Source of the DNA: Akkermansiaceae bacterium
Lineage (GTDB): Bacteria > Verrucomicrobiota > Verrucomicrobiia > Verrucomicrobiales > Akkermansiaceae
Direction: 5' to 3'
Assembly (NCBI GenBank): GCA_903909905.1
Contig: CAIVXP010000057.1
Coordinates: 1-13,659 of the forward strand
DNA length: 13,659 nucleotides
In this document: piece after piece, positions 1-13,659 of the stretch
How the letters are laid out: each line of letters starts with the position of its first letter
Position numbering within the stretch: the stretch's first letter is position 1
Translations under genes and position numbers: made by a program
The notes under the pieces: model-generated
What the model was told of the DNA's origin: nothing
Database searches by the model: none
The model's input: the letters and a program-made list of their open reading frames with translations, nothing else

Positions 1-2
1 AA

Positions 3-494
3 TACGAAAACGAAGTTAACGATTCCGGCGATCCTAGTGAAAAACCATCCGAAACTGACTCGACCTTAGGCAGCGATGGGGAATCTGACCAAAATGAAGT
101 CGTGGATTCCAGCGATCCTAACGACGATAACGAGGTAACCACGACCGGTGAAAACGATTCTGTCGATTTCGAAAAAGGAGTGCCTATTGAATGGTTAAAG
201 CACGGTGGAAGCAACGAAGACCCGCCCGTGATCCTTTACTCCATGGCCGGCAACCCTGCGCCCGTGCTTGAAAAAGAAGATGCTCCCAACGCACTCGCCG
301 GCAACTCTGTTTCCGACAACCTTGCTCCCTCGCTTAACAAAGAAGAGGCCCCCAACGCACTCGCCCGCGGGCTCGGTCAAGACGACAAAGCCGCTGCAAT
401 CAAGACGGAAGCGAACGCCGCCTCTCCTAAAATACTGAGCGAGAAAAACGTGCCTACTGCCCTGATCAAAAAAGGCCGCGTCTTCCTTCGCTAA
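3..494 (+). CDS. C-terminal part of an acidic, repeat-containing secreted protein (probable TpsA partner of the next gene), 5' end outside the window
   Basis: The frame is open from the first full codon at position 3 to TAA at 492-494, so only the last 163 residues are seen. A GTG at 102 lies inside this open frame and is not needed as a start. The first ~55 residues are rich in Asp, Glu, Asn and Ser, with repeated NEV and DS(G/S)DP motifs. Then come three related segments around KEDAPNALA, KEEAPNALA and EKNVPTALI, and the basic end KKGRVFLR. No catalytic motif, membrane segment or cysteine pattern is visible. Exoproteins of two-partner secretion are often encoded directly beside their TpsB transporter, and the next gene is a TpsB, so a TpsA identity is inferred from context only. 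The diagnostic N-terminal TPS/haemagglutinin domain would lie off the window. It could instead be another large surface or adhesin-like protein. That it is coding is fairly sure; the role is not. Confidence 0.6.
   Translation, partial: YENEVNDSGDPSEKPSETDSTLGSDGESDQNEVVDSSDPNDDNEVTTTGENDSVDFEKGVPIEWLKHGGSNEDPPVILYSMAGNPAPVLEKEDAPNALAGNSVSDNLAPSLNKEEAPNALARGLGQDDKAAAIKTEANAASPKILSEKNVPTALIKKGRVFLR
252..383 (+). repeat. Two tandem 66-bp (22-residue) repeats in the acidic protein
   Basis: Units 252-317 and 318-383 are in register with a 66-bp period. Both encode N-x-A-P-x-L-x-K-E-[DE]-A-P-N-A-L-A near the start of the unit. A 15-bp block, cccaacgcactcgcc, is identical at 285-299 and 351-365. 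A third, diverged copy with a one-residue shift (SPKILSEKNVPTALI) lies close to the C-terminus, from about 420. The spread of third-position changes elsewhere in the units suggests an old duplication with conserved protein sequence in the APNALA core. Confidence 0.8.
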
Positions 495-520
495 TTTTCA
501 GGATGTGTTCATTCATGAGA

Positions 521-551
521 GCCGCCAGATGATTCTGGCGGCTTTTTTTTT
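521..551 (+). terminator. Strong Rho-independent terminator between the acidic-protein gene and tpsB
   Basis: A perfect 8-bp stem, GCCGCCAG (521-528) and CTGGCGGC (535-542), closes a 6-nt loop (529-534). It is followed at once by nine T residues (543-551). It stands 26 bases after the stop of the upstream gene and ends ten bases before the ATG chosen for tpsB. Any transcript from upstream that reaches tpsB must read through it. Confidence 0.92.
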
Positions 552-561
552 GACCAACCCG

Positions 562-2235
562 ATGAGACACCCCGCCGCTATCGCGTCAGTTTGCGCGATC
601 CTCCCAGCCTCGGTTTTTGGCTTTGGTGCTGAGGATGCGAGTCGGCCCGTCCCCCTCACCGAAAGCCCTTCCTCCGAGCGCCCCACTCGGGAAGAATCCG
701 CGGAAGTGGTCGCAGACAAGGACCAAATCCTGGTCCCATCCCTTCTCGGATTAGCGGTTGGAAGGACTTCGGAATCAGCCTTAAAACTACAAAAAAAACT
801 TAATCCTGCCGTGGTAACGGATGGGTTTTCGGAAGCCGACGCTGCAACAATCTCAAAAATAGCAGCAGGCGCCATTGGTCAACCCGTCTCACTCCGATCA
901 TTGGACAGCTTGAGCACGAAATTGGAAACCGCGTTCCGTTCGTCGGGGCGGGCGTTTGTGAAAGTCTCATTCCCACCTCAAGAAATCACCTCTGGTGTCA
1001 TCGCCATCGTGATTTGTCCCGCCCGCGTCGGCTCGATTCTAGTCGCCGGCAAACCTTCCTTTGGGATGAGGTTTGCCGCCAACGCCTTCCGCACCGTGCC
1101 TGGCAAGGAGCTTTCCGGCGATGTTGTGATGGAAGACCTCGACTGGATCAATCTCAACCCGCTTCGGCGGGCATCCATCTCCTATCGCGATGGTCTGGCC
1201 CCAGACTCAATCGACCTAAAACTCCGCCTTCGGGCAGACAAACCATGGCGCGCCTATACCGGCATTGACAACCAACTCAGCGATAATCTTGGTGATGAAC
1301 GCATATTCCTCGGGTTTCAATATGGTGATCTTTTCTCGCTGGATCATCGGGTGACGGCGCAATACACCTCTTCGCTCGACTCAACAAGCTTGGTTGGAAT
1401 CAGCGGAATCTATCAGGTGCCGCTACCCGTTCGGCACCTGATCGACGCCTCGCTAGGTTACACTGAATCCGAGTCAGACTCCGAAGGGCCAATCGATCAG
1501 AGCGGACAATTCTCACGTGCCGCCCTTGTTTATCGCGTTCCACTTCCCCGCTGGAAATCCATCAGCCAAGAGTGGCGTGCTGGAATCGAGTTTCGTGCGA
1601 ATGATTATCTCTTTACCAATAACACCAGTGAGAAAGTTCGCTTTTTCAATTTCGAAGTCGGCCGAAAAGGACGCCGCAACGATTCGCTCGGCTACACCAG
1701 CATGGATGCTTCTTTGGTTTATAGCCCCGGCCAAGGGATTCTCGGCTCAAACGATGCTGACTTCATCGCCCTCGGTGCAGACGGCGCGGAATCGCTGATC
1801 GCCAAACTGGAACTCGAACGCACACTCAAGCTCAGTAAAAACGCAATGCTGTTGGGTCGCTGCCGATCTCAGTGGGCAGATTCCAATCTTTTATCATCCG
1901 ATCAAATTTCCGCTGGCGGCTTCGGGCTGGTGAGGGGATTTGATGAAAGTGTCGGTTACGCATCGACTGGCATCGTCACTACAGTCGAACTGCAATCCAG
2001 AAACTTTCACACAAAAAAGGCCGGCGACTATCAGGCCGTGACATTCTTTGACGCAGCATTTCTCAACCGCGATCAAGCGAGTGACATCGGACAACTTACC
2101 TCCACTGGCGTGGGCTTGCGCTGGCGCTACGCGGAGAACTTGTCAGCGAGACTGGATCTCGCGATTCCAGTCGACTGCCCAGAGCAAGAAAACAGCGATC
2201 CGATGCTGCACTTTTCGGTCAGCACCACTTGGTGA
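562..2235 (+). CDS. TpsB-family (ShlB/FhaC/HecB) outer-membrane two-partner secretion transporter
   Basis: This 557-residue protein should sit in the outer membrane as a beta-barrel that exports a TpsA partner from the periplasm. Residues 1 to about 22 form a signal peptide (MRHP, hydrophobic core, small residues at FGFGA). A linker rich in Ser, Glu and Pro follows. A POTRA-like region covers about 77-225 and ends in WINLNPLRRA, like the WLNxNPxR stretch found in this family. The ShlB-type barrel covers about 226-557. VRGF at 457-460 matches the (V/L)RG(F/Y) motif of the Omp85/TpsB superfamily, and the chain ends in Trp, usual for barrel proteins. The frame is open back to 505, but the segment before ATG 562 is mostly the terminator hairpin read as protein, so 562 is preferred. 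No Shine-Dalgarno is visible. The gene converges on the anti-sigma gene with six bases between the stops. The family call is firm; the substrate is inferred to be the upstream product. Confidence 0.88.
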   Translation: MRHPAAIASVCAILPASVFGFGAEDASRPVPLTESPSSERPTREESAEVVADKDQILVPSLLGLAVGRTSESALKLQKKLNPAVVTDGFSEADAATISKIAAGAIGQPVSLRSLDSLSTKLETAFRSSGRAFVKVSFPPQEITSGVIAIVICPARVGSILVAGKPSFGMRFAANAFRTVPGKELSGDVVMEDLDWINLNPLRRASISYRDGLAPDSIDLKLRLRADKPWRAYTGIDNQLSDNLGDERIFLGFQYGDLFSLDHRVTAQYTSSLDSTSLVGISGIYQVPLPVRHLIDASLGYTESESDSEGPIDQSGQFSRAALVYRVPLPRWKSISQEWRAGIEFRANDYLFTNNTSEKVRFFNFEVGRKGRRNDSLGYTSMDASLVYSPGQGILGSNDADFIALGADGAESLIAKLELERTLKLSKNAMLLGRCRSQWADSNLLSSDQISAGGFGLVRGFDESVGYASTGIVTTVELQSRNFHTKKAGDYQAVTFFDAAFLNRDQASDIGQLTSTGVGLRWRYAENLSARLDLAIPVDCPEQENSDPMLHFSVSTTW

Positions 2236-2241
2236 TTACCA

Positions 2242-3291
2242 TCACCGCGGCCCGATGAGAATCGTGTTCTTGTCGGAGGGAGGGACATCCTTTCCGGCGG
2301 AATCGTTGGTGATCATAAAATTGTCTGGGATCGTGCCCACAGGGAGCTCGAATCCCACCGACTCATACGCTTCGGCGCTTGGCGGAATTTTACCGAGCAA
2401 ACGAGGCTCGGTTTCACCTCTTGCGGTGACCCAGAAATTCGTGTTTGAAAGATTGTTCACGACCAAAGTTCCAGTCCCTGTCGCCGGGTCATAAATTGGC
2501 ACGGCAGACGGAGTATCGACAACGCCCTGTTCCCCCTGGTTATCTGCCAATGATGCTTTTCCCGCCAGTGCATCACCTAGCACATCCACCACTGACGTCT
2601 CGGCATCTGTCGTAGCTACTTCCGTGGGTACGATCTGAGTTGTGGCATTCGGCGGCCTCATTTTCATCACGATCGGCCATGCCATCCCTTGAACTGGTTC
2701 CAAGCGCTGCTGCTCGCGCTTTTCGACGCTCTCGAGTTTCTCACGCAAGACCGCGATCTCCTGAACAAGGCGTTTCGTTTCCATCTTCGTCACCAACTTC
2801 ACGTTGTTCTCATGGGTGGCGGCATCTCGGTTGGAGGTAGCATCTTCGGCCAGCTCGGATCCCACGTCTGAAGATGGCTTCGCAGCCAACTCTTGGACGG
2901 TAGCTTTTTGAATCATGAGGATATCCCGTTTGTTGGCGTGGGGAGTGGCGCTGTGCTTGACGATTTCCGACGGCGCGGGTGGTTTGCGATTCACCAGCAG
3001 CATGAAGGCAAACGCCGCGGCGGCCGCGGCCCAGCCTGAGATGCCCAGCCAATTCACCGACTTTGAAGCCTGTAGACCCAAACGCGCTTGAAGTTGCTCC
3101 AATTGTCCCGCGCGGGGTGAAAGCGGCGCGATGCTGGCTGCGGCCACGGCAGCACACAGAACGTTCATATCCCGGTAAGCATCTCTCAGCTCGGGGTCTT
3201 GATGAATTGCCTCGTCAAAGCCAGCGGCTTCGTAGGAATCGAGCATCCCAAATGCCCGCCAGGCTGCGGTATCGTGTGGGTCAGAATTCAT
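2242..3291 (-). CDS. RskA-like membrane anti-sigma factor
   Basis: This 349-residue protein is predicted to hold the neighbouring ECF sigma factor at the inner membrane. Residues 10-75 resemble the RskA-type cytoplasmic sigma-binding region (FGMLDSYEAAGFDEAI, DPELRDAY) but lack the HxxxCxxC zinc ligands of ZAS anti-sigma factors. One transmembrane helix lies at about 83-100 (GWAAAAAAFAFMLLV). Residues 101-260 form a periplasmic linker with a likely coiled coil at 162-195. Residues 262-349 match the anti-sigma-K C-terminal domain: YDPATGTGTLVVNNL, a W-containing strand, RLLGKIPP, and a final ILIGPR. It begins inside the end of the sigma gene (11-bp overlap), so the two are made together. RskA-type factors are typically released by regulated intramembrane proteolysis; no protease gene is in the window. 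Confidence 0.82.
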   Translation of the reverse strand: MNSDPHDTAAWRAFGMLDSYEAAGFDEAIHQDPELRDAYRDMNVLCAAVAAASIAPLSPRAGQLEQLQARLGLQASKSVNWLGISGWAAAAAAFAFMLLVNRKPPAPSEIVKHSATPHANKRDILMIQKATVQELAAKPSSDVGSELAEDATSNRDAATHENNVKLVTKMETKRLVQEIAVLREKLESVEKREQQRLEPVQGMAWPIVMKMRPPNATTQIVPTEVATTDAETSVVDVLGDALAGKASLADNQGEQGVVDTPSAVPIYDPATGTGTLVVNNLSNTNFWVTARGETEPRLLGKIPPSAEAYESVGFELPVGTIPDNFMITNDSAGKDVPPSDKNTILIGPR

Positions 3292-3892
3292 AACGTGATA
3301 GTTGGTTGCGTACCTTGTCCAATGCTCGACGCAGTCGGTTTTTCACCGTCCCCAGCGGAGTTCCGAGTTGCGACGAAATTTCCGAATGAGTATATTCCAG
3401 AAAGACAGCCAGTTCTAAACACTCGCGTTCGTCGGGCGGTAAAATTTGAAGTGCGGCGCGGACTCGGCGCCAATCGTCCTTCATCATCACCCGCGGATCT
3501 TCGCTCTCTTCCGTAGGTGCATGCAGATGAATGGGAACCACCCGCGAGGAATCGCGCTTGCCCCGGTGGCGGTAGCGCAGGCGGTCAATGCAGTAACCAC
3601 GCATCACCGCAAAGGCCCACGCAAAAGGCGGCGATTGCGACGGGTCATAGTCAACCGAGCGATGCCACATCCGCACGAAGGTGTCTTGCACGATTTCCTC
3701 CGCCTCGTGTCGGTCGCCAAGCATCCGAACCGACGCCCCCAACAGAATCGGACTCCACATGCCATAAAGTTCCGTAAGCGCACTGCCGTCCCCCCTCGCC
3801 ATGCGATCGATCAACGCCGCTGCAACACCCGTCTGATCTTCACCCAAAATAATGGGGGAATCCAAGTTTGGGATGAACTCAGGCTCGATCAT
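3281..3892 (-). CDS. ECF RNA polymerase sigma factor (SigK-like type)
   Basis: This 203-residue protein should direct RNA polymerase to a small regulon in response to an envelope signal passed by the anti-sigma factor encoded next. Region sigma-2 spans about 28-110, with the conserved stretches AEEIVQDTFVRMW and FAWAFAVMRGYCIDRLR. Region sigma-4 spans about 140-195, with LPPDERECLEL, the helix-turn-helix YTHSEISSQLGTPLGTVKNR and RRALDKVR. The FAWAFAV…IDRLR pattern and the RskA-like partner fit the SigK-type ECF groups. The frame opens earlier with a TTG at 3934, but ATG at 3892 (MIEPEF) is the better start. Neither has a Shine-Dalgarno. The stop lies inside the anti-sigma start (11-bp overlap). 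Confidence 0.9.
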   Translation of the reverse strand: MIEPEFIPNLDSPIILGEDQTGVAAALIDRMARGDGSALTELYGMWSPILLGASVRMLGDRHEAEEIVQDTFVRMWHRSVDYDPSQSPPFAWAFAVMRGYCIDRLRYRHRGKRDSSRVVPIHLHAPTEESEDPRVMMKDDWRRVRAALQILPPDERECLELAVFLEYTHSEISSQLGTPLGTVKNRLRRALDKVRNQLSRYEF

Positions 3893-3937
3893 GGAGGGCA
3901 GTATGGGTATGGGTATTGAGAGCCTGCGGCACAATGA

Positions 3938-3965
3938 TTGTCTACTCCAGATCCGTCATTTTAAT
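3938..3965 (+). promoter_or_regulatory. Candidate housekeeping promoter upstream of the 42-codon ORF
   Basis: A TTGTCT box (3938-3943, 4 of 6 to TTGACA) is followed after 16 bases by TTTAAT (3960-3965, 5 of 6 to TATAAT). Transcription would start near 3972, about 20 bases before the ATG at 3992. The block lies in the AT-richer part of the divergent gap, so it may also overlap the sigma gene's own promoter, which I could not identify. Confidence 0.35.
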
Positions 3966-3991
3966 AACTTTGGCCCACCGATTTTTAAAGA

Positions 3992-4120
3992 ATGATAAAA
4001 ATCGGCCCCCATGCCGTCGAGGTCCCCGAACGCCTCGCCATCCTCGCCCACCGCGAGAAAGTCGCCATCCCAATGGGCACCGACAAGGCCGTCTTCCGCG
4101 AGTGGCTGCTCAAGATGTAA
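3992..4120 (+). CDS. Uncharacterised 42-residue ORF
   Basis: ATG at 3992 to TAA at 4118-4120 encodes 42 residues beginning MIKIGPHAVEVPERL and ending DKAVFREWLLKM. I do not recognise it. Coding is supported by a very strong C/G preference at third positions across the whole ORF, while the flanking DNA is AT-rich, and by a fair promoter just upstream. There is no clear Shine-Dalgarno, only AAAG right before the ATG. It has no signal peptide or membrane segment. It is divergent from the sigma gene and convergent with lpxI, which ends 42 bases further on. It could be a genuine small protein or the surviving fragment of a larger lost gene. Confidence 0.45.
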   Translation: MIKIGPHAVEVPERLAILAHREKVAIPMGTDKAVFREWLLKM

Positions 4121-4162
4121 AGAAATTCTACGCAGCTACATTACCCTGCAAGACACAAGGCC

Positions 4163-4981
4163 TCAAGCAATGGCATGTAGGCCAATTTGGTACTTCGCGC
4201 AGAGATCCGCGACTTTTTCCTTCTCCAACAGGAGAGTCCGACCTGCCTCAATGGTGATACCCTTCACGCCAGCCGCGGCGCATGTCTCCAAGGTCTGCGG
4301 ACCCACAACCGGCACATCAAAGCGGAAGTCCTGATTGGGTTTTGAAACCTTTACCAGCATGACATCTTTGCCTCGCCCAAGCTCGCCACCGCGCCGGATG
4401 CAAGCATTGGTGCCTTCGAAGGCCTCGACGGCCAGCACGGTGCCGTGACGCACAACCACACTTTGCCCGATGTCGTGAGAGCTGGTTTCCTTGGCGATTC
4501 GAAATCCAAATGCCGCATCCGCCAACTGGCGCTTGCCAAAAGTCGGACCACAGACATGACCTGCCGCAGGAAGATGGTCATCAAGAAATGTGGTGGCGGA
4601 GAGCACCTCGATGCCCTCCTTTCCAAGCTCGTCGGCGATCGCTCCGAAGAGCGTCTCGGCATTGCGCTCCTTGACCCGCGCCAAAATCATCAGCACCCGC
4701 AAGTCAGGACGCAGATCAAAAAGATTCTTGGGCGAAATTTGCCCCATCATCACCGCCTCAGTCACCCCTTCACTGAGAAAAAATCGAATCATTTTCCCAA
4801 GTTGGGCAACGCGGAACCACTCGGAGGCATCAGCTTGATCGACGAGCTGTGGGTCGGTTTCGCCATGGAAGGCAGCAACTACGAGCTTCACCCCAGGAGA
4901 CACTCGCCGAGCCGCGGAAATGAATGTTGCGGGATAGACTCCGCTGCCAGCAATGATTCCGATGGTGCGCGATTGTGCCAT
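4163..4981 (-). CDS. lpxI: LpxI, UDP-2,3-diacylglucosamine diphosphatase
   Basis: LpxI hydrolyses UDP-2,3-diacylglucosamine to 2,3-diacylglucosamine 1-phosphate (lipid X) and UMP, the fourth step of lipid A synthesis, replacing the unrelated LpxH. The 272-residue length matches the family. The N-terminal domain opens with IGIIAGSGVYP (7-17). The C-terminal domain has AVEAFEGTNACIRRGG (184-199), then KPNQDFRFDVPVVGPQT (214-230) and IEAGRTLLLEKEKVADL (244-260). All are hallmark stretches of this family (DUF1009). Asp222 in RFDVP appears to correspond to the aspartate shown to be catalytic in the Caulobacter enzyme. The ATG at 4981 gives the complete N-terminal motif; no Shine-Dalgarno is visible. 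A tRNA-Leu gene lies 41 bases upstream on the same strand. No other lipid A gene is in the window. Confidence 0.95.
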   Translation of the reverse strand: MAQSRTIGIIAGSGVYPATFISAARRVSPGVKLVVAAFHGETDPQLVDQADASEWFRVAQLGKMIRFFLSEGVTEAVMMGQISPKNLFDLRPDLRVLMILARVKERNAETLFGAIADELGKEGIEVLSATTFLDDHLPAAGHVCGPTFGKRQLADAAFGFRIAKETSSHDIGQSVVVRHGTVLAVEAFEGTNACIRRGGELGRGKDVMLVKVSKPNQDFRFDVPVVGPQTLETCAAAGVKGITIEAGRTLLLEKEKVADLCAKYQIGLHAIA

Positions 4982-5022
4982 GCGTTTGATTCAAAAAACC
5001 CTTTTCACACAGAAACGCGAAG

Positions 5023-5102
5023 TAGCGGCTGTGGGACTCGAACCCACACTCGTTAGAACTCGATTTTGAGTCGAGCGCGTCTACCAATTCCGCCAAGCCG
5101 CC
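5023..5102 (-). tRNA. tRNA-Leu (anticodon CAA)
   Basis: On the minus strand the sequence folds as a complete class II tRNA. A 7-bp acceptor stem pairs 5102-5096 with 5030-5024; the first pair is G-U. The D-arm contains AATTGGTAGACGC. The anticodon stem CTCGA/TCGAG encloses loop CTCAAAA, giving anticodon CAA at 5068-5066. An 11-nt variable region follows, then a T-arm with GTGGG, loop TTCGAGT and CCCAC. The discriminator is A at 5023. The CCA end is not encoded. It reads UUG leucine codons. Confidence 0.95.
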
Positions 5103-5169
5103 TTGGTGGGAAGTAGTCTGCGCCCCTTTGCCGGGAGAATCAAGATGATTTAGGCGGCATTGGCCGCTC

Positions 5170-5202
5170 AAAAGCAGTGAGCCATGGCGGCCCGGGACTC
5201 AC
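5170..5202 (-). terminator. Possible weak terminator at the end of the five-gene operon
   Basis: In the minus-strand transcript, GTGAGTC (5202-5196) can pair with GGCTCAC (5183-5177), with one G-U pair, closing a 12-nt GC-rich loop. TGC and a run of four T (5173-5170) follow. It starts 11 bases after the stop of the last operon gene. A second, shorter hairpin (GCGGC, 4-nt loop, GCCGC at 5154-5167) follows without a T run. The rest of 5103-5213 must also hold the promoter of the tRNA gene, which I could not identify with confidence. Confidence 0.4.
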
Positions 5203-5213
5203 CAGGATTTTGG

Positions 5214-6668
5214 CTACCATTTTTCCGCACTGCGCATTGGCTCTAGGGCAGGATCATAAATGTTAAACTCGATGCGCTCGATGGAATCCATGCCAAAGAG
5301 GGCCCGCCCGAAATTCTGGCTTGAGCCAACCAATCGACCTTGATCGACGGCATCTAGACGAAACACCAGGTGCGATCCGTCGGTGAAATACACGCGAATG
5401 TCACCATTGCGACGGATGGCGCGCTCGGGACTTGTCGACCTCAAAGCCAGGGTGCGCAACCGCTCCACCGGTAGCTTCACTTCACCGAGACGGGTCTTGG
5501 TAACAACCAAGCCATTCTCGATTGCGGTCAGCTCGCCCGCGACAAAATCACCATTGGCTAACCGCATGCCATCCTCTCGCTGCGCTTTCTTCACTGTCGA
5601 AAGACTCGTCCCCCAAGGCCTCTGCATCTCTACGGCAGCCCCGGCCCGCGCTTCGGCGGCACCATCGACAACCCCATCCCACTTGCTAACGCGTATCGCC
5701 GAAACACGCTGTGACTGGCTGCCTAGTGACACGAATTGGAGACTATTGCCAAAGGCATCATTCTTGAAGCCGGTATCGGTCCAAACTTCGGCAATCCGTT
5801 CATTGATAAAAAGGCAGAATGTACCGTTGCGCCGGTTTGCCCGAATTTCAAAATGCGCCTTATCGGCCACCACGAGAACCTGTGCGTTACCGCTGCCAAG
5901 GTAGTTTTGAGAAGCGCAGTTCTTTAGACGGAAATTACCACGCTGAATCGTCAACTCGTAACCGGAGTTGGCAGGCTCGGTGGTGACATTCTCAGAAAAA
6001 ACCACCACCTTCAGCGAACAAGCGTCGCCTTTCCATTCCGCGTCAAAGGCAATCGAGCAGACGTCCGGCAGCAGGTCGTCGCGGCCAATCCCACCAACGC
6101 CGCTACTGCGAAACGATGATCTGCCGTATGTCCATACATCACTGTCACCAGTCTGTCGCCAACCATCCAGGCCAGTCGGCCCGCGGTACACAATCTCGCT
6201 TGAGGCCTCGATGCGAGCGTCGGCAATCATCGCGCGATTGAATTCCATACGTCCTCCAAAAAGTGTTTCCAGCGCCACAACCTTATCGTTCACCATCGCA
6301 AGCCCACCCCGTACCACATCGCCATTGGTCAGATTCAATACCAGTTCCGATTTTCCATGGACGGGTGCAGGATTGCCGGGCAATCGCAGCTCGAGGATTT
6401 TTGAAAGCTCGAATGGCGTGGGTTTTTCCAAAGCCGGCGAGATCCATACCAGTCGCTCAGCGGCGAACGATTCAAGTGATCCGGTAAGTCGGTCGTCATT
6501 GGCAAAACGAATTTCCGCGTCGGGGGCAAGCGCCCGGGTGAATCCAGTCATCGCTAGGCACAGCACCACAAGCCGCAACGCATCAATCCAAAGCGCCGAT
6601 GTTTTTGCATGATGTTGCGACCCACGGAGTCGTTCCATGACCCTGAAAAATGTATCAATCGGCGTCAT
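5214..6668 (-). CDS. Exported protein with a central lectin-like beta domain and four NGD modules (paralogue of the upstream gene)
   Basis: I do not recognise a named family for this 484-residue protein. A hydrophobic segment at about 25-48 ending in RALA looks like a signal peptide or anchor; a later start at Met11 is possible. Short beta modules lie at about 54-95, 112-153, 368-410 and 426-468. They share N-G-D-x-(hydrophobic)-x-G-x-L, then LxhxxxhGxhxh and xxhxxhxh (h hydrophobic); clear copies are LTNGDVVRGGL and LANGDFVAGEL. Between the pairs, about 158-330 is a beta-rich domain opening VYRGPTGLDGW, with EW, LKVVVFSEN, YELTIQ and CLFINERIAEVW, resembling concanavalin A-like folds. No catalytic motif is seen. 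Its ATG overlaps the stop of the preceding gene as ATGA, so translation is coupled. It is the last gene of the operon. Likely periplasmic or surface binding role; this is inference. Confidence 0.75.
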   Translation of the reverse strand: MTPIDTFFRVMERLRGSQHHAKTSALWIDALRLVVLCLAMTGFTRALAPDAEIRFANDDRLTGSLESFAAERLVWISPALEKPTPFELSKILELRLPGNPAPVHGKSELVLNLTNGDVVRGGLAMVNDKVVALETLFGGRMEFNRAMIADARIEASSEIVYRGPTGLDGWRQTGDSDVWTYGRSSFRSSGVGGIGRDDLLPDVCSIAFDAEWKGDACSLKVVVFSENVTTEPANSGYELTIQRGNFRLKNCASQNYLGSGNAQVLVVADKAHFEIRANRRNGTFCLFINERIAEVWTDTGFKNDAFGNSLQFVSLGSQSQRVSAIRVSKWDGVVDGAAEARAGAAVEMQRPWGTSLSTVKKAQREDGMRLANGDFVAGELTAIENGLVVTKTRLGEVKLPVERLRTLALRSTSPERAIRRNGDIRVYFTDGSHLVFRLDAVDQGRLVGSSQNFGRALFGMDSIERIEFNIYDPALEPMRSAEKW

Positions 6669-8065
6669 TCGCTGGCTGGTTTGGTGGCAGGAGTCACGAC
6701 CCTTTCAATCGCCCGCAAAAAATTATGTCGCATCTGCAGGGAGCCAAGCAAGGGATGCTGGATGATTGCCGAATCGTTCGAAAATCGACAAGAAGATATG
6801 TGCATAAGGCCGGCACCCGCATAGCTCAAAATATAAGAATCTACAGGCTCTTTCGTGAACGCTTTTGACGTTGGGGACCGCGAGAAAAAAACCGTCGACA
6901 CATCGGTCAAAGGCACCTCGACGCATTTTTCTTCGAAGCCGAAACGGAAGCGCAGCACAGCCCCCGTATTCGAAGCCGAAATCTCCTCCAAAACACCACT
7001 CCATCTTTCGTTGCGGCGGGTGATCAAACTGTCTCCATCCTCACCGCCTCGCGACTCCGCACGATGCATGCGCGGAGTGTTGTCGCATTCAAGCACCTCG
7101 AGACCGCTCACCTTCTGCTCGACCCCATCCGCTTGACTTACCAAAACAAGACCGGCACCCGATGGCGGCGATGGCACCGGATCGACAAACTCCCCCTCAA
7201 GCTTTCCGTCGAGAAGCAAGCGAAGAGTGGAATCACGACGATCGATTTGTAACTCCACCCGCAGCCGCCTGCCCTCACACTGTGCTGGCATGCGATTGAC
7301 AAAAGCAACGGTGGTGAAACGCCGGTTTTTCGCCGCCTCGCGCTTGACCTCTAAACCCGTCGATTGGAATGACAGACAGTAGCGATCACATCGCTCGTCG
7401 TTGGCCACGAGCGGATCGGCAAAAAACACCATGATGGCAGGCATTGCGTTTCTCGCCCATCCCAGCTCGAACTTCAGAATGAATTGTTCAGGAAATCCAA
7501 CACTGCGAGTGGCGACCGATTGCCCCTTGGACAACATGGTACCGTTTTCAAAGCGCCATGCGGCTGAATCCTCCTGATCGACCGACCAACCACCCATCCC
7601 TTGAGAAGCTGCATAAAGCACCTTGTCCCGACGCACACCCAATTGCATCGCTTCAAGATGCCTACGCTCAATGTGGATCCTTCCAAGTTCAGTGGACTCC
7701 ACCACAAGCCCGCCTTTGTCCAGTCCAACAATCCTGCAGGGAATGACATCACCATTGACCAGTTCGACTCGTTCTGGCGCCGGCTCCGATGCCACCGCTT
7801 CGGTCGTAAACTCCACCTTGCCAACCATCGAAGCACGCACACGCATGGGATCGGGTGATAGTTCGCTCTGCAATTCCAAAACCCCGCCATCCTCGATCGA
7901 ACGCAAGTCACCGGTCAGCCGCTCAATGCCACTCGTCATCGTCACCACATCGGCACACAGGCAGGCAGCGTACGCCATGTTCAGAACCGCCGTGGTCAAA
8001 ATGAGCTTCATGCCTTTAGATTTCGCCATCTCAATCATCAAAGTCATGCAAACTTCCGGTTTCAT
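6665..8065 (-). CDS. Exported protein with a central lectin-like beta domain and four NGD modules (paralogue of the downstream gene)
   Basis: This 466-residue protein has the same layout as the next gene's product and is clearly its paralogue. A signal peptide ends near residue 38 (MKLILTTAVLNMAYAACLCA from Met19; the coupled ATG adds 18 residues). Beta modules lie at about 44-86, 102-142, 349-394 and 409-456; the second, VNGDVIPCRIVGL followed by LGRIHIERRHLEAMQL, is the best preserved. The central domain at about 150-326 starts LYAASQGMGGW and carries W170, FILKFELGW, IMVFFADP, YCLSFQ and LRLLLDGKLEGEF, in the same order as in the paralogue. No enzyme motif is visible. It overlaps both neighbours by four bases (ATGA at each junction). 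Divergence between the two is high, so the duplication is old. Confidence 0.75.
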   Translation of the reverse strand: MKPEVCMTLMIEMAKSKGMKLILTTAVLNMAYAACLCADVVTMTSGIERLTGDLRSIEDGGVLELQSELSPDPMRVRASMVGKVEFTTEAVASEPAPERVELVNGDVIPCRIVGLDKGGLVVESTELGRIHIERRHLEAMQLGVRRDKVLYAASQGMGGWSVDQEDSAAWRFENGTMLSKGQSVATRSVGFPEQFILKFELGWARNAMPAIMVFFADPLVANDERCDRYCLSFQSTGLEVKREAAKNRRFTTVAFVNRMPAQCEGRRLRVELQIDRRDSTLRLLLDGKLEGEFVDPVPSPPSGAGLVLVSQADGVEQKVSGLEVLECDNTPRMHRAESRGGEDGDSLITRRNERWSGVLEEISASNTGAVLRFRFGFEEKCVEVPLTDVSTVFFSRSPTSKAFTKEPVDSYILSYAGAGLMHISSCRFSNDSAIIQHPLLGSLQMRHNFLRAIERVVTPATKPASE

Positions 8066-9129
8066 TTTTCGTATATCGGAAGATAGCGAAAATTCAACGC
8101 GAGGGAAAGTAGCGCTCCAGCAGTGTTGAAGGAAGGTCCTTGGTTGCCTGGAAACGAACCATCCGCCGACTGGATTGTAGCAAGATAGCGGATGTTACGT
8201 TCATTCCATTCCTTCCACACCGCTTCATCAGCATGAAACAGGGCCTGTGACATGTAACACTCAAAGTAATAGGGATAATAGCGATCCCGATAATCCAAAT
8301 GGTTTTTCAAAAACTCGAAACTTGCCTCATAACCCTTCGAATCGCGCTCCTTCGCCAGCGATTGGCAAAGCAAGCCGATCGCCGTAAGTGTCGGCTTTCC
8401 ACCGGAGAGCGAGGTGTAGCCATAGGATCCGTTCGCCGCACGATTGTTGGCGAGATAGGCCATTGCTTTGCTAATCGACCCGTCAGGCACTGAAATCCCG
8501 GCATTCCGAGCGGCAAAAAGCGTGACGAGCTGGCATCCGGTGACGGTCGTATCCGCATCACGGCTGTCGGGCGTATAGCGCCAAGCACCAGACCGATTGC
8601 GCTTTTGTGCGGAAAGGATCAGGTCCACCGCCTTGCGCAACGCCGTTTCAATCTCAGGATTCTCAACACAGCCATATGATTCGGCAAGCGCCTTGGCAGC
8701 AAAAGCATGGTTGTACATGCTTGAGCCAATGTACCCATTCTTCGGGTTCTGTTGCTTGATGATAAAATCAATCCCGCGACGAATATTGCCAGCGTAACGG
8801 CCACCAACCGGATCATCGCCGTGCGCCAAAAATGCGGCGACACACAATCCAACCACTCCCGGTTCAGACCCCACACTGTCGCTCCATGTCCCGTCCTCGC
8901 TTTGCGTGGATGCCAGGTACTTCATCCCTTTCTCGTAAATGATTTCAACCATGGCCGGCACCACGTCATTTTTCCTACCAATTGCATCCTGACCTGCGGC
9001 ATGACCTGAAAATCCAATGAGGATTGAAGATGCCCGCGCCGCAATGGACACCAAGCCCATCAAGCAATCGCGCTTCATTGTATTTCGAAAATTTTTCATT
9101 GATCCGTGTTTGCTATGCGTCCTTTTCAC
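8062..9129 (-). CDS. Secreted alpha/alpha-toroid protein (prenyltransferase / squalene-oxidase repeat family)
   Basis: This protein of up to 355 residues has repeated helical units of the terpenoid cyclase/prenyltransferase toroid fold. Repeat-like signatures include KYLASTQSEDGTW (70-82), FIIKQQNPKNGYIG (122-135), LSAQKRNRSGAWRYTP (172-187), MAYLANNRAANGSYGY (223-238) and YLATIQSADGSFPG (315-328). It ends RYLPIYEK. The class II cyclase acid motif DXDD is absent (only DADTT at 191-195), so it is probably not a terpene cyclase. Members near DUF4175-like genes are common in PVC genomes and have no known activity. The frame begins at a GTG overlapping the previous stop (GTGA). ATG at 9099 (Met11) is preceded by GGATCA and may be the real start; a signal peptide runs to about AAG46 from either. 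Likely periplasmic. Confidence 0.83.
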   Translation of the reverse strand: MKRTHSKHGSMKNFRNTMKRDCLMGLVSIAARASSILIGFSGHAAGQDAIGRKNDVVPAMVEIIYEKGMKYLASTQSEDGTWSDSVGSEPGVVGLCVAAFLAHGDDPVGGRYAGNIRRGIDFIIKQQNPKNGYIGSSMYNHAFAAKALAESYGCVENPEIETALRKAVDLILSAQKRNRSGAWRYTPDSRDADTTVTGCQLVTLFAARNAGISVPDGSISKAMAYLANNRAANGSYGYTSLSGGKPTLTAIGLLCQSLAKERDSKGYEASFEFLKNHLDYRDRYYPYYFECYMSQALFHADEAVWKEWNERNIRYLATIQSADGSFPGNQGPSFNTAGALLSLALNFRYLPIYEK

Positions 9130-9752
9130 TTCACCAAGGCTCCAGCCCCGCGGTTATAGGCGTCCAGCAACTTTCTAAATTCCTCGGGTATTTCCTGATT
9201 TCCACCGCCTGCGGCCTTTGGCACCCGCCGCTCTTCATCTTTGCCACCACTTGCACCGTCATTGGCCTCACCGCTCGCATCCGATTTCCCGCCATTGCCC
9301 TGCCCTGCATTTTCTCCCGCCCTCCCGTCCTTTCCCTTTTCATCGCCCTGCCCTTCAGGCTTGCGGCCCATCATTCGCTCCATCATTTCCATCATCGCTC
9401 CGCCTGCCTCACTTTGGGATCCGCCCTCTTGGCGCTCCTTTGCCGCTGCATGAATCTTCTCAATGATTTCGGTCTGCGCCGCCATGGTCTCGCCTCCGGT
9501 ATCACCATTGGCCAAACGATTCGTCGCCGCGTCCATCAGGCCTTCGATTTCTTTGAGCAAGCAGATGACTTCAGGCAAGGTTTGCTCAATAACGAGCTGC
9601 TGCACATCCGCAGCCAGCTCGTCCTGTGCGTCGGCCAGCACCGATGCGCCTTCACGATGCTCCGCAATCTTGCTTTCGATCGACTCGGGTTCGGCATCCG
9701 CTACCACCAAGAGACGCACACACAAAACAGTGGGAAGAATGAAATTTTTCAT
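9126..9752 (-). CDS. Small secreted helical protein with a Gly/Lys/Asp-rich linker, function unknown
   Basis: This 208-residue protein begins with a signal peptide (MKNFILPTVLCVRLLVVADA, cut near residue 20). Residues 21-108 look all-helical and acidic, with LPEVICLLKEIEGLMDAA and AAQTEIIEKIHAAAKER. A Met-rich patch follows (MMEMMERMMGR, 120-130), then about 45 residues of low-complexity Gly, Lys, Asp, Glu and Ala. A conserved-looking tail reads EIPEEFRKLLDAYNRGAG (187-204). I recognise no named family; the helical block plus 'IPEEFRKxLDAY' tail is the type of small protein seen beside large coiled-coil membrane proteins in PVC operons. The ATG overlaps the stop of the large upstream gene by one base (TGATG), so it is probably translated by re-initiation in fixed ratio to it. 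Confidence 0.72.
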   Translation of the reverse strand: MKNFILPTVLCVRLLVVADAEPESIESKIAEHREGASVLADAQDELAADVQQLVIEQTLPEVICLLKEIEGLMDAATNRLANGDTGGETMAAQTEIIEKIHAAAKERQEGGSQSEAGGAMMEMMERMMGRKPEGQGDEKGKDGRAGENAGQGNGGKSDASGEANDGASGGKDEERRVPKAAGGGNQEIPEEFRKLLDAYNRGAGALVK

Positions 9753-12382
9753 CAGTTTTCTGGTGGGTTAGGCACGGAACCGATCGAACGGCGAAATTGC
9801 TCGAGCACACGGGTCTGCGCCCGCAGATCCTGCTCGCTCTGAATCATCTTCATCACACGCAGCATGAATTCGAAATCCTCGTTTTCGGCATCGGGCGCGC
9901 CACCCGCACCACCGCCAGTCGCGGCATTCATGCCTCCACCCAGTTCTATCGCCCACCGATTGAGCTGATCCGCCCATTTTTTCGACTGCTCGGCAGCCTC
10001 GAATGAATGGTTGTTGGAGAGCCGCGAGCGAATTTCCTCGAGGCCCAAATCAATCCCGGATGCCTTCATCGCATCCATCAAAGATTGAATCGGCTCGGCC
10101 TTGGTGCGTGAGAAATAATGGGCAAGATCCTCCTGCAACCAACGCAGGTCAGATGCTGTGGTTCCCTGTTGTTTCGAGCTTTCATCGAGCTTCCTTGCAT
10201 CAGCCGGATCAAGTTGCCGATAGCCAAGCCCAAGAATGCGTGCGAATGACTCTTTGAGCGATTCGACGATACCGGTTTGTTCGCCTGCGGCTTTTTTGAG
10301 ACGACTGACGAAGGTGCCGGCCTCGAAGTGCTTGTTGGCATCGTTGGCGCGCTCGATGGCATCGCGCATTTTTTCAAGAGCCTTGCGCTGCCCCTCAATC
10401 GCCGCATCAAGATCTTTCGCTGATTTATCCGGGGTGTTGGAACTCTCACATGATTCACCCAATTTACGTTCCACCTGCGGGATATCCTGCGTGGAAAGCT
10501 CGCTTAGCGCACCCTGAGCTTCAGCCAGTTTGCGCAATGTCTGCTTGTCGATTTGCCCGTTACGGGCCGCATCTTTCATTAATTGTTCCAACCTACGCGC
10601 AAGATCCTCCGCGCGTCGACGAGTCTCAACTTCTTCACTTGCCTGCACCCCGAGCCGTTGGCGGTTTTCACTTTTCTCCAACTCGCCCCCCTCCATGGCA
10701 CCAAGCCTCTCATTTTCATCCAGCAAACCGGTCTCGCGACGCGCGAGATCTTCCAAATCGCTGATCTGCCGATTGAACAAGTTCTTGAGCATCTGCGCAT
10801 GTTCATCGCGCGACAACACATTCAGAACCACTGGCTCAGAATGCGATCGGGCGCGGCCCGGAAAAAAATCTTCGGCGTAGGCACGCAAGACAATCTTCTG
10901 CGGACCAATCCCAAAGGCCGCCGGAGAAAAAGCCACCGCCTCGAGCAATCGCCCGGCACCAGGCGTACCCGATGCAAGCTGCAGCTCGCCCTTGGCCGGT
11001 TTGCCGCCCGCCGGCCGGGTGTGCTCGCCCAACCACTCGATGCCTGCCACCTTCACACCAAAGTCATCTTCGGCCAGTAACTCGAAGTCCACCGTTTCCT
11101 CCGGCAACATGACCTTCTGGCGATCAATGCCCTGCAAATAACAATGTGCCCCAGCATCCTCAGTCGCATCGATACGCAAGCGATACCCTCCCACCCCCTC
11201 AAGCCCATCGCGATCTTTCCACGCAAACGGAATCTCATGCGAATCCTTGCCAATGAGGATTTCTCCAGTGCGCGCGATCTGGCCTTCGACAAGAAGATCA
11301 TTTACTACGGACGGCACTCCATTTGCTGAATTTTGAACGGCATCGGAAATAGTTTGCATCGGACCGCAAGTTCCCGACCTCAAGGCCCGATCCATTCGCA
11401 ACACAAAACGCACTTTACTGCCCGATACCGCACTCAAGACACCAGCCGAACAATCCACCGACTGCTCGCCAAGACCGAGATATGCAGGGGGCGTAACGAT
11501 CGCATCGACACTTTGCACCGCCGGGCGCAAACGCGGCTCAACCCGCATCGCGTGACGCATATCTCCCGCACGAAATTCAATCACGCCAGCTTCCTGCTGA
11601 CCCGGAAATAAAAACCGATAAACACCATTGTTCAAATAGGCCACGACTTCACGTTGCCTGTCATAAACACCACTCGCATGGGACGGTCGCCTCTCGGAAT
11701 CAGCATCCAAACGCAGCTCAACTTGAAATGCCTCGCCCATCGGAACAACTAGGCGCTCTGGCGCATCAATCAAACGCGTGAAGGTATATCGCTCGGTTTT
11801 CGACAAAGGAAACATCCATCGCTGCAACGCATTCCATCCAGCCTTCGGCATCGTGATGCAAGCCACCAATGCCAACACAATCAAAACCGCACCCATGGCC
11901 ACCCAACGACGGTAACTTGATGCCGGCAAAGCATCATCAAGCGAACGCGACGCAACCTCAGCTGACACGGCAAGCATCGCAGCCTCACGCAAACGCGGAG
12001 ATATCGATGCCGCACCCTCGCCCTGCTCTTGCAATTCGATCGCTCCCAACAGGCGATCACCCAAACCCGGATGACGTCGAGCAATCAGCCGCGCCAACTG
12101 CGCGTTCCGCCGCTGCCCCCATACCCAGCGATGCAGCCAAAATGGCACAAAAACCGCAAACAGTGAAATGCCGGCTCCAAGGATCAACAAACGCAACCAC
12201 CCCGGTGTCGGCCACACACGATCCAATGCCATCACCAGCAAAAAAGATAACAGCAAACCCGCCACACCCGCAGCAACTGCCTCCAGAACCTTGAGCCGCC
12301 ACAAGTGACGACGAAACGACGCCAACTGCATTTGCAATGACTCGGGAATCGGAATCGTGGATGTCCGGGAGGATTGCGCCAT
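9752..12382 (-). CDS. DUF4175-like large inner-membrane protein with periplasmic beta region and coiled coil
   Basis: This 876-residue protein leads the five-gene operon. Transmembrane helices lie at about 34-53, 62-84 and 159-179. Between the second and third is a cytoplasmic-type stretch with RLIARRHPGLGDRLLGAIEL. Residues about 197-527 are beta-rich and presumably periplasmic, with the Ig-like signatures IVTPPAYLGLGEQ and LLAEDDFGVKVAGIEW. Residues about 527-770 are highly charged heptad-like helix (long coiled coil). A Gly-rich hinge, MNAATGGGAGGAP, leads to the tail FMLRVMKMIQSEQDLRAQT. This layout resembles DUF4175-type proteins annotated in planctomycetes and verrucomicrobia, whose function is unknown. 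A TTG at 12421 would add 13 residues, but ATG 12382 is preferred; no Shine-Dalgarno is visible. It probably acts as a membrane scaffold for the smaller secreted products; that is inference. Confidence 0.82.
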   Translation of the reverse strand: MAQSSRTSTIPIPESLQMQLASFRRHLWRLKVLEAVAAGVAGLLLSFLLVMALDRVWPTPGWLRLLILGAGISLFAVFVPFWLHRWVWGQRRNAQLARLIARRHPGLGDRLLGAIELQEQGEGAASISPRLREAAMLAVSAEVASRSLDDALPASSYRRWVAMGAVLIVLALVACITMPKAGWNALQRWMFPLSKTERYTFTRLIDAPERLVVPMGEAFQVELRLDADSERRPSHASGVYDRQREVVAYLNNGVYRFLFPGQQEAGVIEFRAGDMRHAMRVEPRLRPAVQSVDAIVTPPAYLGLGEQSVDCSAGVLSAVSGSKVRFVLRMDRALRSGTCGPMQTISDAVQNSANGVPSVVNDLLVEGQIARTGEILIGKDSHEIPFAWKDRDGLEGVGGYRLRIDATEDAGAHCYLQGIDRQKVMLPEETVDFELLAEDDFGVKVAGIEWLGEHTRPAGGKPAKGELQLASGTPGAGRLLEAVAFSPAAFGIGPQKIVLRAYAEDFFPGRARSHSEPVVLNVLSRDEHAQMLKNLFNRQISDLEDLARRETGLLDENERLGAMEGGELEKSENRQRLGVQASEEVETRRRAEDLARRLEQLMKDAARNGQIDKQTLRKLAEAQGALSELSTQDIPQVERKLGESCESSNTPDKSAKDLDAAIEGQRKALEKMRDAIERANDANKHFEAGTFVSRLKKAAGEQTGIVESLKESFARILGLGYRQLDPADARKLDESSKQQGTTASDLRWLQEDLAHYFSRTKAEPIQSLMDAMKASGIDLGLEEIRSRLSNNHSFEAAEQSKKWADQLNRWAIELGGGMNAATGGGAGGAPDAENEDFEFMLRVMKMIQSEQDLRAQTRVLEQFRRSIGSVPNPPEN

Positions 12383-12399
12383 GATTCTAATGATCCGAA

Positions 12400-12429
12400 A
12401 CAATAAGCGGGAAAATCGCAATCAGGCAA
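12400..12429 (-). promoter_or_regulatory. Candidate promoter of the five-gene operon
   Basis: On the minus strand TTGCCT (12429-12424, 4 of 6) is followed after 18 bases by TATTGT (12405-12400, 4 of 6). Transcription would start near 12393, leaving a leader of about ten bases before ATG 12382. The match is modest; an activator site upstream, such as the repeats at 12446-12594, would be a natural helper. Confidence 0.25.
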
Positions 12430-12445
12430 CTCAAGCCGATCACCG

Positions 12446-12594
12446 ATCACCAAACGCCAATAGTTTCGCCCGATCTTGCTTTCACCTCAAGCGACATTCT
12501 CGACCTCATCCGAGATTTACTACCATCGATGACATTTCGGTTTGGGGCAACCATCACTAAATGAAAGAATCAAGACCCATCAAATCACCAAACG
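12446..12594 (+). repeat. Three copies of an 11-bp direct repeat, candidate regulator binding sites
   Basis: ATCACCAAACG occurs exactly at 12446-12456 and at 12584-12594. A third copy, ATCACTAAATG (9 of 11), lies at 12553-12563, 31 bases before the last one, close to three helical turns. All are in the same orientation and inside the divergent promoter region. The word is not a palindrome. Confidence 0.5.
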
Positions 12595-12706
12595 TTCAAA
12601 AAAATTCTCAAATATCTCCGCCTGCGAAATTTTGCAAAAAATTCATCTTATTCGTTGATTATTTTAAATTTACCATCCAAGGTATCCTATAACTCATCTC
12701 CCCCCG

Positions 12707-13585
12707 ATGAAAATTGCCCCCATTGGTTGGCGCCGTCCTCTCGGCGCGTCTTTGTCAATTGCCGCAGCTGCGGCATGTCTCGACTTTTCATGGCTTGATG
12801 CGTCGGTTTCCAATACGGATTCGATCTCAAATTACGCGCTAGAATCATTGACTAGCCGGAATTCCGGATGGGCGAGCGCTGCTGTGTTGGGTACCGCACT
12901 GTTGGTTTCGATCTCCGCCTTCAGCAAACGCCGCAAGTCGGAACAGAAACACGTCGAACAAATCCGCCAACGCATTGCCGCCGACCTTCACGACGATATC
13001 GGTAGCAATCTCGGCAGCCTCTCACTCATCGCACGCAGTGCGCGCAAGGACTTGATACGACTCGATGGCCCCGAAGAAATCGCTCATGACCTCAGCGAGA
13101 TGGAAAACATCGCACGCGAGTGCTCGCTCGCGATGCGTGACATCGTCTGGATGTGGGAGCGAAGCAACGACTCGGTCGGAGACTTGATCGAGCGCATGCG
13201 CCAAACAGCCAACCGCATGCTGCGCGAAATGCGGTTCAGCCTCGATTGCCAATCCTGCGAAATCGATGCTCACCTATCGCTCGAAGCCAAACGACACCTC
13301 TTTCTCTTTTTCAAGGAAGCGCTTCACAACATCATGAAACATTCCCATGCCGACCAAGTCTCGGTGAAGGTCTGGAATGAAGATGATCAACTCGCCATCG
13401 AGATCCTTGACAATGGCAATGGCATTCCAGCCACGCCCGGTGCGGATTCACCCGGTGTCCGCAAACTCCAGGACCGCGCCCGTACTCTCCACGGTCTTTT
13501 CCGCGTCAAGTCCAACAAGGAGTATGGCACGCGCATCCAACTCTTCGTCAAACACTCACACCTCTCCATACAACCCGCCATATGA
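12707..13585 (+). CDS. Compact membrane histidine kinase (HisKA_3 / HATPase_c)
   Basis: This 292-residue protein should autophosphorylate on His95 and pass phosphate to the response regulator encoded next. Two hydrophobic segments at about 13-27 and 56-72 frame only some 28 residues, leaving almost no extracytoplasmic sensor domain. The dimerisation/H-box is RQRIAADLHDDIGSNLGSLS (88-107). The ATPase domain shows the N-box FKEALHNIMKH (202-212, Asn208), G1 DNGNGI (235-240) and GVRKLQDRARTLHG (250-263). The DLHDDIGS box is the type found in the large propeller-sensor kinases of Bacteroidetes and Verrucomicrobia, but here the beta-propeller is absent. Start is ATG 12707; no Shine-Dalgarno. The stop overlaps the next ATG (ATGA). 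Confidence 0.92.
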   Translation: MKIAPIGWRRPLGASLSIAAAAACLDFSWLDASVSNTDSISNYALESLTSRNSGWASAAVLGTALLVSISAFSKRRKSEQKHVEQIRQRIAADLHDDIGSNLGSLSLIARSARKDLIRLDGPEEIAHDLSEMENIARECSLAMRDIVWMWERSNDSVGDLIERMRQTANRMLREMRFSLDCQSCEIDAHLSLEAKRHLFLFFKEALHNIMKHSHADQVSVKVWNEDDQLAIEILDNGNGIPATPGADSPGVRKLQDRARTLHGLFRVKSNKEYGTRIQLFVKHSHLSIQPAI

Positions 13586-13659
13586 TAGCAACCACCAAGA
13601 CCACCAACATCTGGAACGTCGATGACCACGAAGTCTTCGCCAAACAGATCAACCGACTC
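13582..13659 (+). CDS. Response regulator, N-terminal 26 residues (truncated by the window end)
   Basis: The frame starts with ATG overlapping the kinase stop and runs off the window. Residues 10-18 read IWNVDDHEV, the first beta strand and acidic pocket (Asp14, Asp15) of a receiver domain. The DDH form is usual in NarL/LuxR-type regulators, which commonly pair with HisKA_3 kinases, so a C-terminal LuxR-type DNA-binding domain is expected but not seen. Confidence 0.85.
   Translation, partial: MIATTKTTNIWNVDDHEVFAKQINRL

Follow-up and report, generated by a model that had tools for sequence, protein, structure and literature searches.

Operons of the Bat/cmd type, in which a MoxR ATPase (PF07726), a DUF58 protein, a protein with the BatA N-terminal domain and vWA-like proteins are encoded together, are widespread, as illustrated by BatI of Bacteroides, the bat genes of Leptospira and Borrelia and the RL3499-RL3502 (cmdA-D) operon of Rhizobium, and the targets of most of them are unknown. 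In the account given by PMC5700661, the Rhizobium operon is tied to cell morphology and envelope integrity, and Bat in Borrelia is discussed as a further precedent; the MoxR-vWA pair NorQD is described as remodelling its target. Here we consider a five-gene operon in a 13,659-nucleotide stretch of an Akkermansiaceae bacterium (GenBank assembly GCA_903909905.1, contig CAIVXP010000057.1, positions 1 to 13,659; hereafter the window), whose genes, A to E, overlap on the minus strand at 5214-12382 and encode proteins of 876, 208, 355, 466 and 484 residues. In the window's family, an operon that elsewhere opens with MoxR-DUF58-BatA-GATase has been split, and these five genes are its second half. As in Bat/cmd-type operons, MoxR, DUF58, BatA and vWA-like proteins are encoded together in the window's genome, on another contig (C103), and many relatives carry the same MoxR-vWA genes in one operon with A, C and D; to these genes, this set adds membrane protein A (with B), the toroid C and barrel/jelly-roll D-type proteins, and it forms a separate operon in the window's family. 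The NorQ/NorD and RavA/ViaA chaperones share the ATPase family and partner type of the MoxR-vWA half, but they are described as two-component, cytosolic systems with known targets, whereas the present system lacks a known target and has several partners in the membrane and periplasm.

The window is from contig 57 of a Luteolibacter-like metagenome-assembled genome (MAG; 2.06 Mb in 405 contigs; G000, family f1), which was compared with 59 relatives and with an order-wide set of 191 genomes of at least 90% completeness. Many of these genomes are MAGs, and the open reading frames (ORFs) of the compared loci were called mechanically, with uncertain starts. In 14 of 18 loci outside the order (L211-L214, L216-L225), A is preceded on its own strand by a GATase-like gene, no more than two ORFs of 150 residues or longer intervening, and in 12 of the 18 all four of MoxR, DUF58, BatA and GATase-like genes are found there; the GATase-like gene is absent upstream in L215 and L228, and in L226 and L227 the contig ends first. 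C adjoins A in 15 of these loci and D-type genes are present in 12. Within the order, MoxR, DUF58 and GATase-like genes precede A in one operon in five of the 17 A-orthologue loci L051-L067 (L055, L057, L059, L061 and L065, from families f2, f3 and f4; BatA was not separately called in L057), some of the other loci having little upstream sequence. Because the intact MoxR-DUF58-BatA-GATase-A-C-D order is present both in families f2-f4 and outside the order, it is likely to be the ancestral state.

By contrast with those loci, none of 79 named loci, which span up to 10 kb upstream of A and belong mostly to the window's family, has a MoxR, DUF58, BatA or GATase match upstream on the same strand. 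Separate MoxR-DUF58-BatA-GATase operons are found instead (L073, L074, L076, L077 and L079), and the window genome's own first half lies on C103 (L071), where MoxR PF07726 (E 8e-63), DUF58 (E 2.3e-50), BatA (E 1.7e-14) and VWA_2 matches are followed by a GATase gene cut by the contig end. The MoxR/vWA genes first noted as absent are indeed missing from the window, whose operon contains no MoxR AAA+ ATPase and is by that measure not itself of the Bat/cmd type, but they are present in the genome, on C103. The presence of DUF58 and a BatA-type vWA protein in the genome is in itself non-discriminating, since BatA is found in 59/59 relatives (at E<=0.001; 58 above cut-off), as is MoxR (59/59), both being ubiquitous because paralogous systems exist. 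Such paralogous operons, reading MoxR-DUF58-BatA-GATase-A' with a DUF4175-type A' of about 1500 residues, occur in L069, L084, L085 and L090; in L084 and L090, A' has a toroid gene next to it.

Downstream of A, the linkage is uniform. All 49 of the 79 named loci that extend at least 6.5 kb beyond A have C and D-type genes behind it on the same strand, 41 of them in the exact order A-B-C-D-D-D, while the 30 loci with less room show either A alone (nine) or the beginning of the same order. Conserved synteny in related genomes, proposed as a check on the operon, is therefore borne out. Named homologues of A and E include Luteolibacter and Verrucomicrobiaceae MAGs, and the nearest named locus is that of a Verrucomicrobiaceae MAG (L091), whose A is 90% identical to the window's. 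A cultured strain, Luteolibacter pohnpeiensis KCTC 22041 (L130), also has the set.

The unlinked halves are also inherited together, as scored on the GATase-like gene as marker of the MoxR half. Among the 59 relatives, the A profile matches 55, of which G043, G047 and G050 hold distant paralogues only, leaving orthologues in 52; seven genomes (G003, G042, G043, G047, G050, G052 and G057) have neither an A nor a GATase-like orthologue, and the one discordant genome, G027 (81% complete), has A only. C orthologues (identity of at least 42%) are missing from the same seven, plus G025 (57% complete). Across the 191 genomes of the order, with thresholds chosen after orthologues and paralogues had been seen to separate in the 59 relatives (E<=1e-30 for A, E<=1e-100 for GATase-like; at most four and five candidates per genome, respectively), 132 have both, three have A only (G111, G120, G144), one has GATase-like only (G098) and 55 have neither. 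A lies within 10 kb of the GATase-like gene in just 29 of the 132, on one strand in 28, and none of the 29 belongs to family f1. A Fisher test of the joint pattern gives 4e-43, a value overstated since the genomes are related; both the presence and the absence state are seen within genera g1, g8, g10 and g18. Across the phylum, the A profile matches 32 of 193 genomes, in 16 of 108 genera (E<=1e-40).

Linkage, split, joint inheritance, fusions and folds are what the comparison establishes, and because the linkage, the joint inheritance, the fusions of B with A and of D units (both described below), the structures and the MoxR-vWA precedents agree, we favor, at about an even chance, the view that the operon supplies the membrane and periplasmic part of an envelope-assembly system of the MoxR-vWA (Bat/cmd) type; the set as a whole probably serves the cell envelope. 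From here on we infer the mechanism: the cytosolic MoxR ATPase and DUF58 would work on two vWA proteins in the membrane, BatA and the GATase-like protein, which would pass ATP-driven remodelling on to A. The Ig-like domains and coiled coil of A, together with B, would reach into the periplasm, keeping in place toroid C and the barrel/jelly-roll proteins D and E, and the latter two might dock substrates such as sugar-bearing proteins or a wall polymer. The envelope would thereby be correctly assembled or maintained, as is reported for the Rhizobium cmd operon. The original prediction of a single periplasmic or surface assembly anchored by A agrees with the conserved linkage and the B-A fusion, but it did not foresee a MoxR half elsewhere in the genome.

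Several points weigh against this interpretation. As reported in PMC3557215, Leptospira biflexa without all its bat genes has no growth, shape or oxidative phenotype, and the 55/191 genomes of the order that lack both halves show that the system can be dispensed with in some lineages. With the two halves unlinked in the window's family, their co-expression is conjectural; the complex and its function are predicted rather than directly evidenced, and transmission from BatA and the GATase-like protein to A is a presumed step. A literature search of titles and abstract openings found no paper describing this gene set or its MoxR linkage. What matters here is that partners in the membrane and periplasm, with recognisable folds, are linked to a system of this kind, in an arrangement shared across the phylum, and its natural division between two loci in a single family, with clean joint presence and absence, makes the question directly testable.

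The anatomy of the window's operon, in order of transcription, is as follows.

9752..12382, minus strand: gene A, inner-membrane protein, distant DUF4175 relative
9752, minus strand: A/B junction, TGATG, 1-nt overlap
9126..9752, minus strand: gene B, small helical exported protein
9126-9129, minus strand: B/C junction, GTGA
8062..9129, minus strand: gene C, exported alpha/alpha toroid of the squalene-cyclase-like fold family
8062-8065, minus strand: C/D junction, ATGA; site of the extra gene D1 in relatives
6665..8065, minus strand: gene D, orthologue of relatives' D2, homologous to E
6665-6668, minus strand: D/E junction, ATGA
5214..6668, minus strand: gene E, orthologue of relatives' D3, jelly roll between small beta barrels
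12383..12706, no strand: gap of 324 bp between A and a divergent histidine kinase gene; likely promoter location

The five ORFs and four junctions, re-read in the sequence, are as first described. Taken alone, the overlap motifs are weak evidence of coupling, as among 2052 random stop triplets of these loci, 1191 have a start codon overlapping them by 4 or 1 nt in either frame; by our arithmetic, which assumes uniform frames, the chance is about 0.19 for one given frame. In 46 named A-B-C-D-D-D loci, however, such overlaps recur at A/B in 37, at B/C in 26, at C/D1 in 41 and at D2/D3 in 43, with D1/D2 overlapping in only two, so that four of the five junctions in the family show conserved coupling, and translational coupling of the window's genes is plausible. 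Because the real starts of C, D and E are perhaps internal ATGs (for D, a candidate near 8011 has a cleaner signal peptide), the proposal that all five products are made together stays conditional. A sigma-70 scan returned one promoter-like site against 4.6 expected, and none ahead of A. B, C, D and E each begin with a hydrophobic stretch by Kyte-Doolittle hydrophobicity, in keeping with predicted export signals. None of A, B, D and E reaches the cut-off of a Pfam family, and C lacks DxDD.

Protein A has three hydrophobic peaks (residues 35-53, 65-83 and 160-178, Kyte-Doolittle), three immunoglobulin (Ig)-like domains at about 199-524 and a long helical, coiled-coil region at 525-867, matching its description as a three-helix membrane protein. 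In 12/12 long-form A proteins of relatives, B finds its match in the C-terminal domain (E 4.6e-18 to 4e-11; hhalign 99.0); it is, on this homology, the detached C-terminus of A, and its fusion to A in all 12 long forms supports its suggested role as a partner. The toroid reading of C finds support in a match to SQHop_cyclase_C (E 3.7e-9; 36.5 bits against a cut-off of 26.1), a match it shares with squalene-cyclase and prenyltransferase toroids, from which it differs in being short (355 residues), exported and devoid of DxDD. Two more specific identities for C were rejected: a squalene-hopene cyclase, on the missing catalytic motif (D.DD), and an alpha-2-macroglobulin/complement TED, as the TED_complement match (E 0.0016) is below cut-off and C has no C..Q thioester motif.

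The window's set of five genes is a reduced one, since same-genus relatives usually have six: in 18 of the 20 same-genus loci L031-L050, three mutually homologous D-type genes (D1, D2 and D3; hhalign 99.8-99.95) follow C, and the other two loci run off the contig. L091 keeps D1 directly 3' of C with an ATGA junction, while a D1 query in G000 matches only D and E; the loss may be lineage-specific, or reflect an assembly gap. Other loci deviating in this respect have D2-D3 only (L124, L127, L158) or a D3-type gene right after C (L128). The E-type profile matches 41 of the 59 relatives, and because its 18 misses comprise the seven genomes without A and 11 with A, in which D-type genes are too divergent or missing, D and E cannot be scored for presence as A, C and GATase are.

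The fold of E invites a different interpretation, close to the original prediction, in which D and E would be display lectins of a surface or periplasmic glycan-binding assembly, the other proteins an anchor and export aids, and MoxR only a maturation factor. Residues 157-333 of E form a jelly roll flanked by small beta barrels, and the expected lectin-like fold is seen in that a concanavalin-like domain is recognised, with CBM66 and L-type lectins (ERGIC-53/VIP36) among the best matches, although at only 10-14% identity and without such flanking barrels; carbohydrate binding is putative. The variable number of D-type genes would also suit a display role. We nonetheless regard this account as unlikely, as no surface-anchoring motif was found by Pfam, and of the 15 loci outside the order in which C adjoins A, no D-type genes were detected in three (L220, L224 and L228; a fourth, L227, is cut). 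Because A-C persist there, the core looks like A-C with MoxR, and D like an addition.

Giant D-type proteins of 1013-1403 residues, found in 12 loci of the order, raise the prospect of periplasmic redox or oxidative-damage repair ("aerotolerance"), in which D-type proteins would bring in thioredoxin, C and D would hold damaged proteins and MoxR would drive turnover. WC[GA]PC is present in 10 of the 12, and an AhpC/TSA domain in eight of nine tested (L054 lacks the domain; L062 has it minus the CxxC). In L051 (4819-8609), a DsbD-like gene lies two ORFs upstream of the TPR gene ahead of A and fits the thioredoxin theme, and Bat operons took their name from aerotolerance (PMC5700661). TPR proteins, the type to which BatC and BatE of Bat systems belong, adjoin A only in L051 and L052. 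Since neither D nor E of the window has a thioredoxin domain by Pfam, and the L. biflexa bat deletion had no oxidative phenotype as reported (PMC3557215), we hold this to be somewhat more doubtful again.

A cell-division or morphogenesis scaffold, with A acting in septation or wall synthesis like other DUF4175-domain proteins, would draw on AdvA, an Acinetobacter DUF4175-domain protein described as critical for division (PMC7481262), and on CenR, a Rhodobacter division/envelope regulator whose listed targets include a TIGR02302 gene and a MoxR gene (PMC9275681). A shares with DUF4175/PF13779 (TIGR02302) proteins a transmembrane-rich N-terminus followed by an extracytoplasmic part, and paralogues A' in relatives' MoxR-BatA operons reach the PF13779 cut-off of 27.3 bits, as does the A orthologue of G014 with 29.3 bits; the orthologues in G055 (21) and G044 (19.2) fall short of it, only one of 13 aligned A orthologues has a match (E 0.014), and the window's A has none at E<=1. 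The label "DUF4175-like" for A therefore survives as a distant relationship, although the window protein itself is unmatched, and with both halves missing from 55/191 genomes a division role seems improbable.

Slightly more remote is a bacterial counterpart of the endoplasmic reticulum glycoprotein-folding apparatus, in which lectin-like jelly-roll D proteins would pick out periplasmic proteins that bear sugars, the disulfides of these would be handled by a thioredoxin, either fused or partnered, C and the coiled coil of A would hold the client, and MoxR/vWA in the cytosol and inner membrane would give ATP-driven force. That the operon merely groups functionally unrelated exported proteins, by chance or common regulation, could appeal to gene functions being unknown and to upstream neighbours that differ within the genus, but is contradicted by linkage, joint inheritance and fusions and is the least credible of all.

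The neighbourhood of the operon offers some further observations. Divergent from A, the stretch 12707-13659 (plus strand) holds a NarL-type histidine kinase gene and, behind it, the opening part of what may be a response-regulator gene; a histidine kinase also lies beside A in the nearest relative, L031, and was not recognised there in other same-genus loci. Past the operon's downstream end are a tRNA-Leu and a gene for LpxI, a UDP-2,3-diacylglucosamine hydrolase of lipid A synthesis (4163-4981, minus strand), then, at 2242-3934 (minus strand), a gene for an extracytoplasmic function (ECF) sigma factor (3281-3934), behind which comes one for an anti-sigma-like membrane protein (2242-3291). A short plus-strand ORF of about 42 codons, read by eye at about 3992-4120, separates the sigma-factor gene from lpxI. 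At 505-2235 (plus strand) lies a two-partner-secretion-type outer-membrane protein (ShlB/FhaC, Omp85 and POTRA_2 matches), and the tail of an open, low-complexity ORF directly ahead of it (3-494, plus strand) may be its exoprotein.

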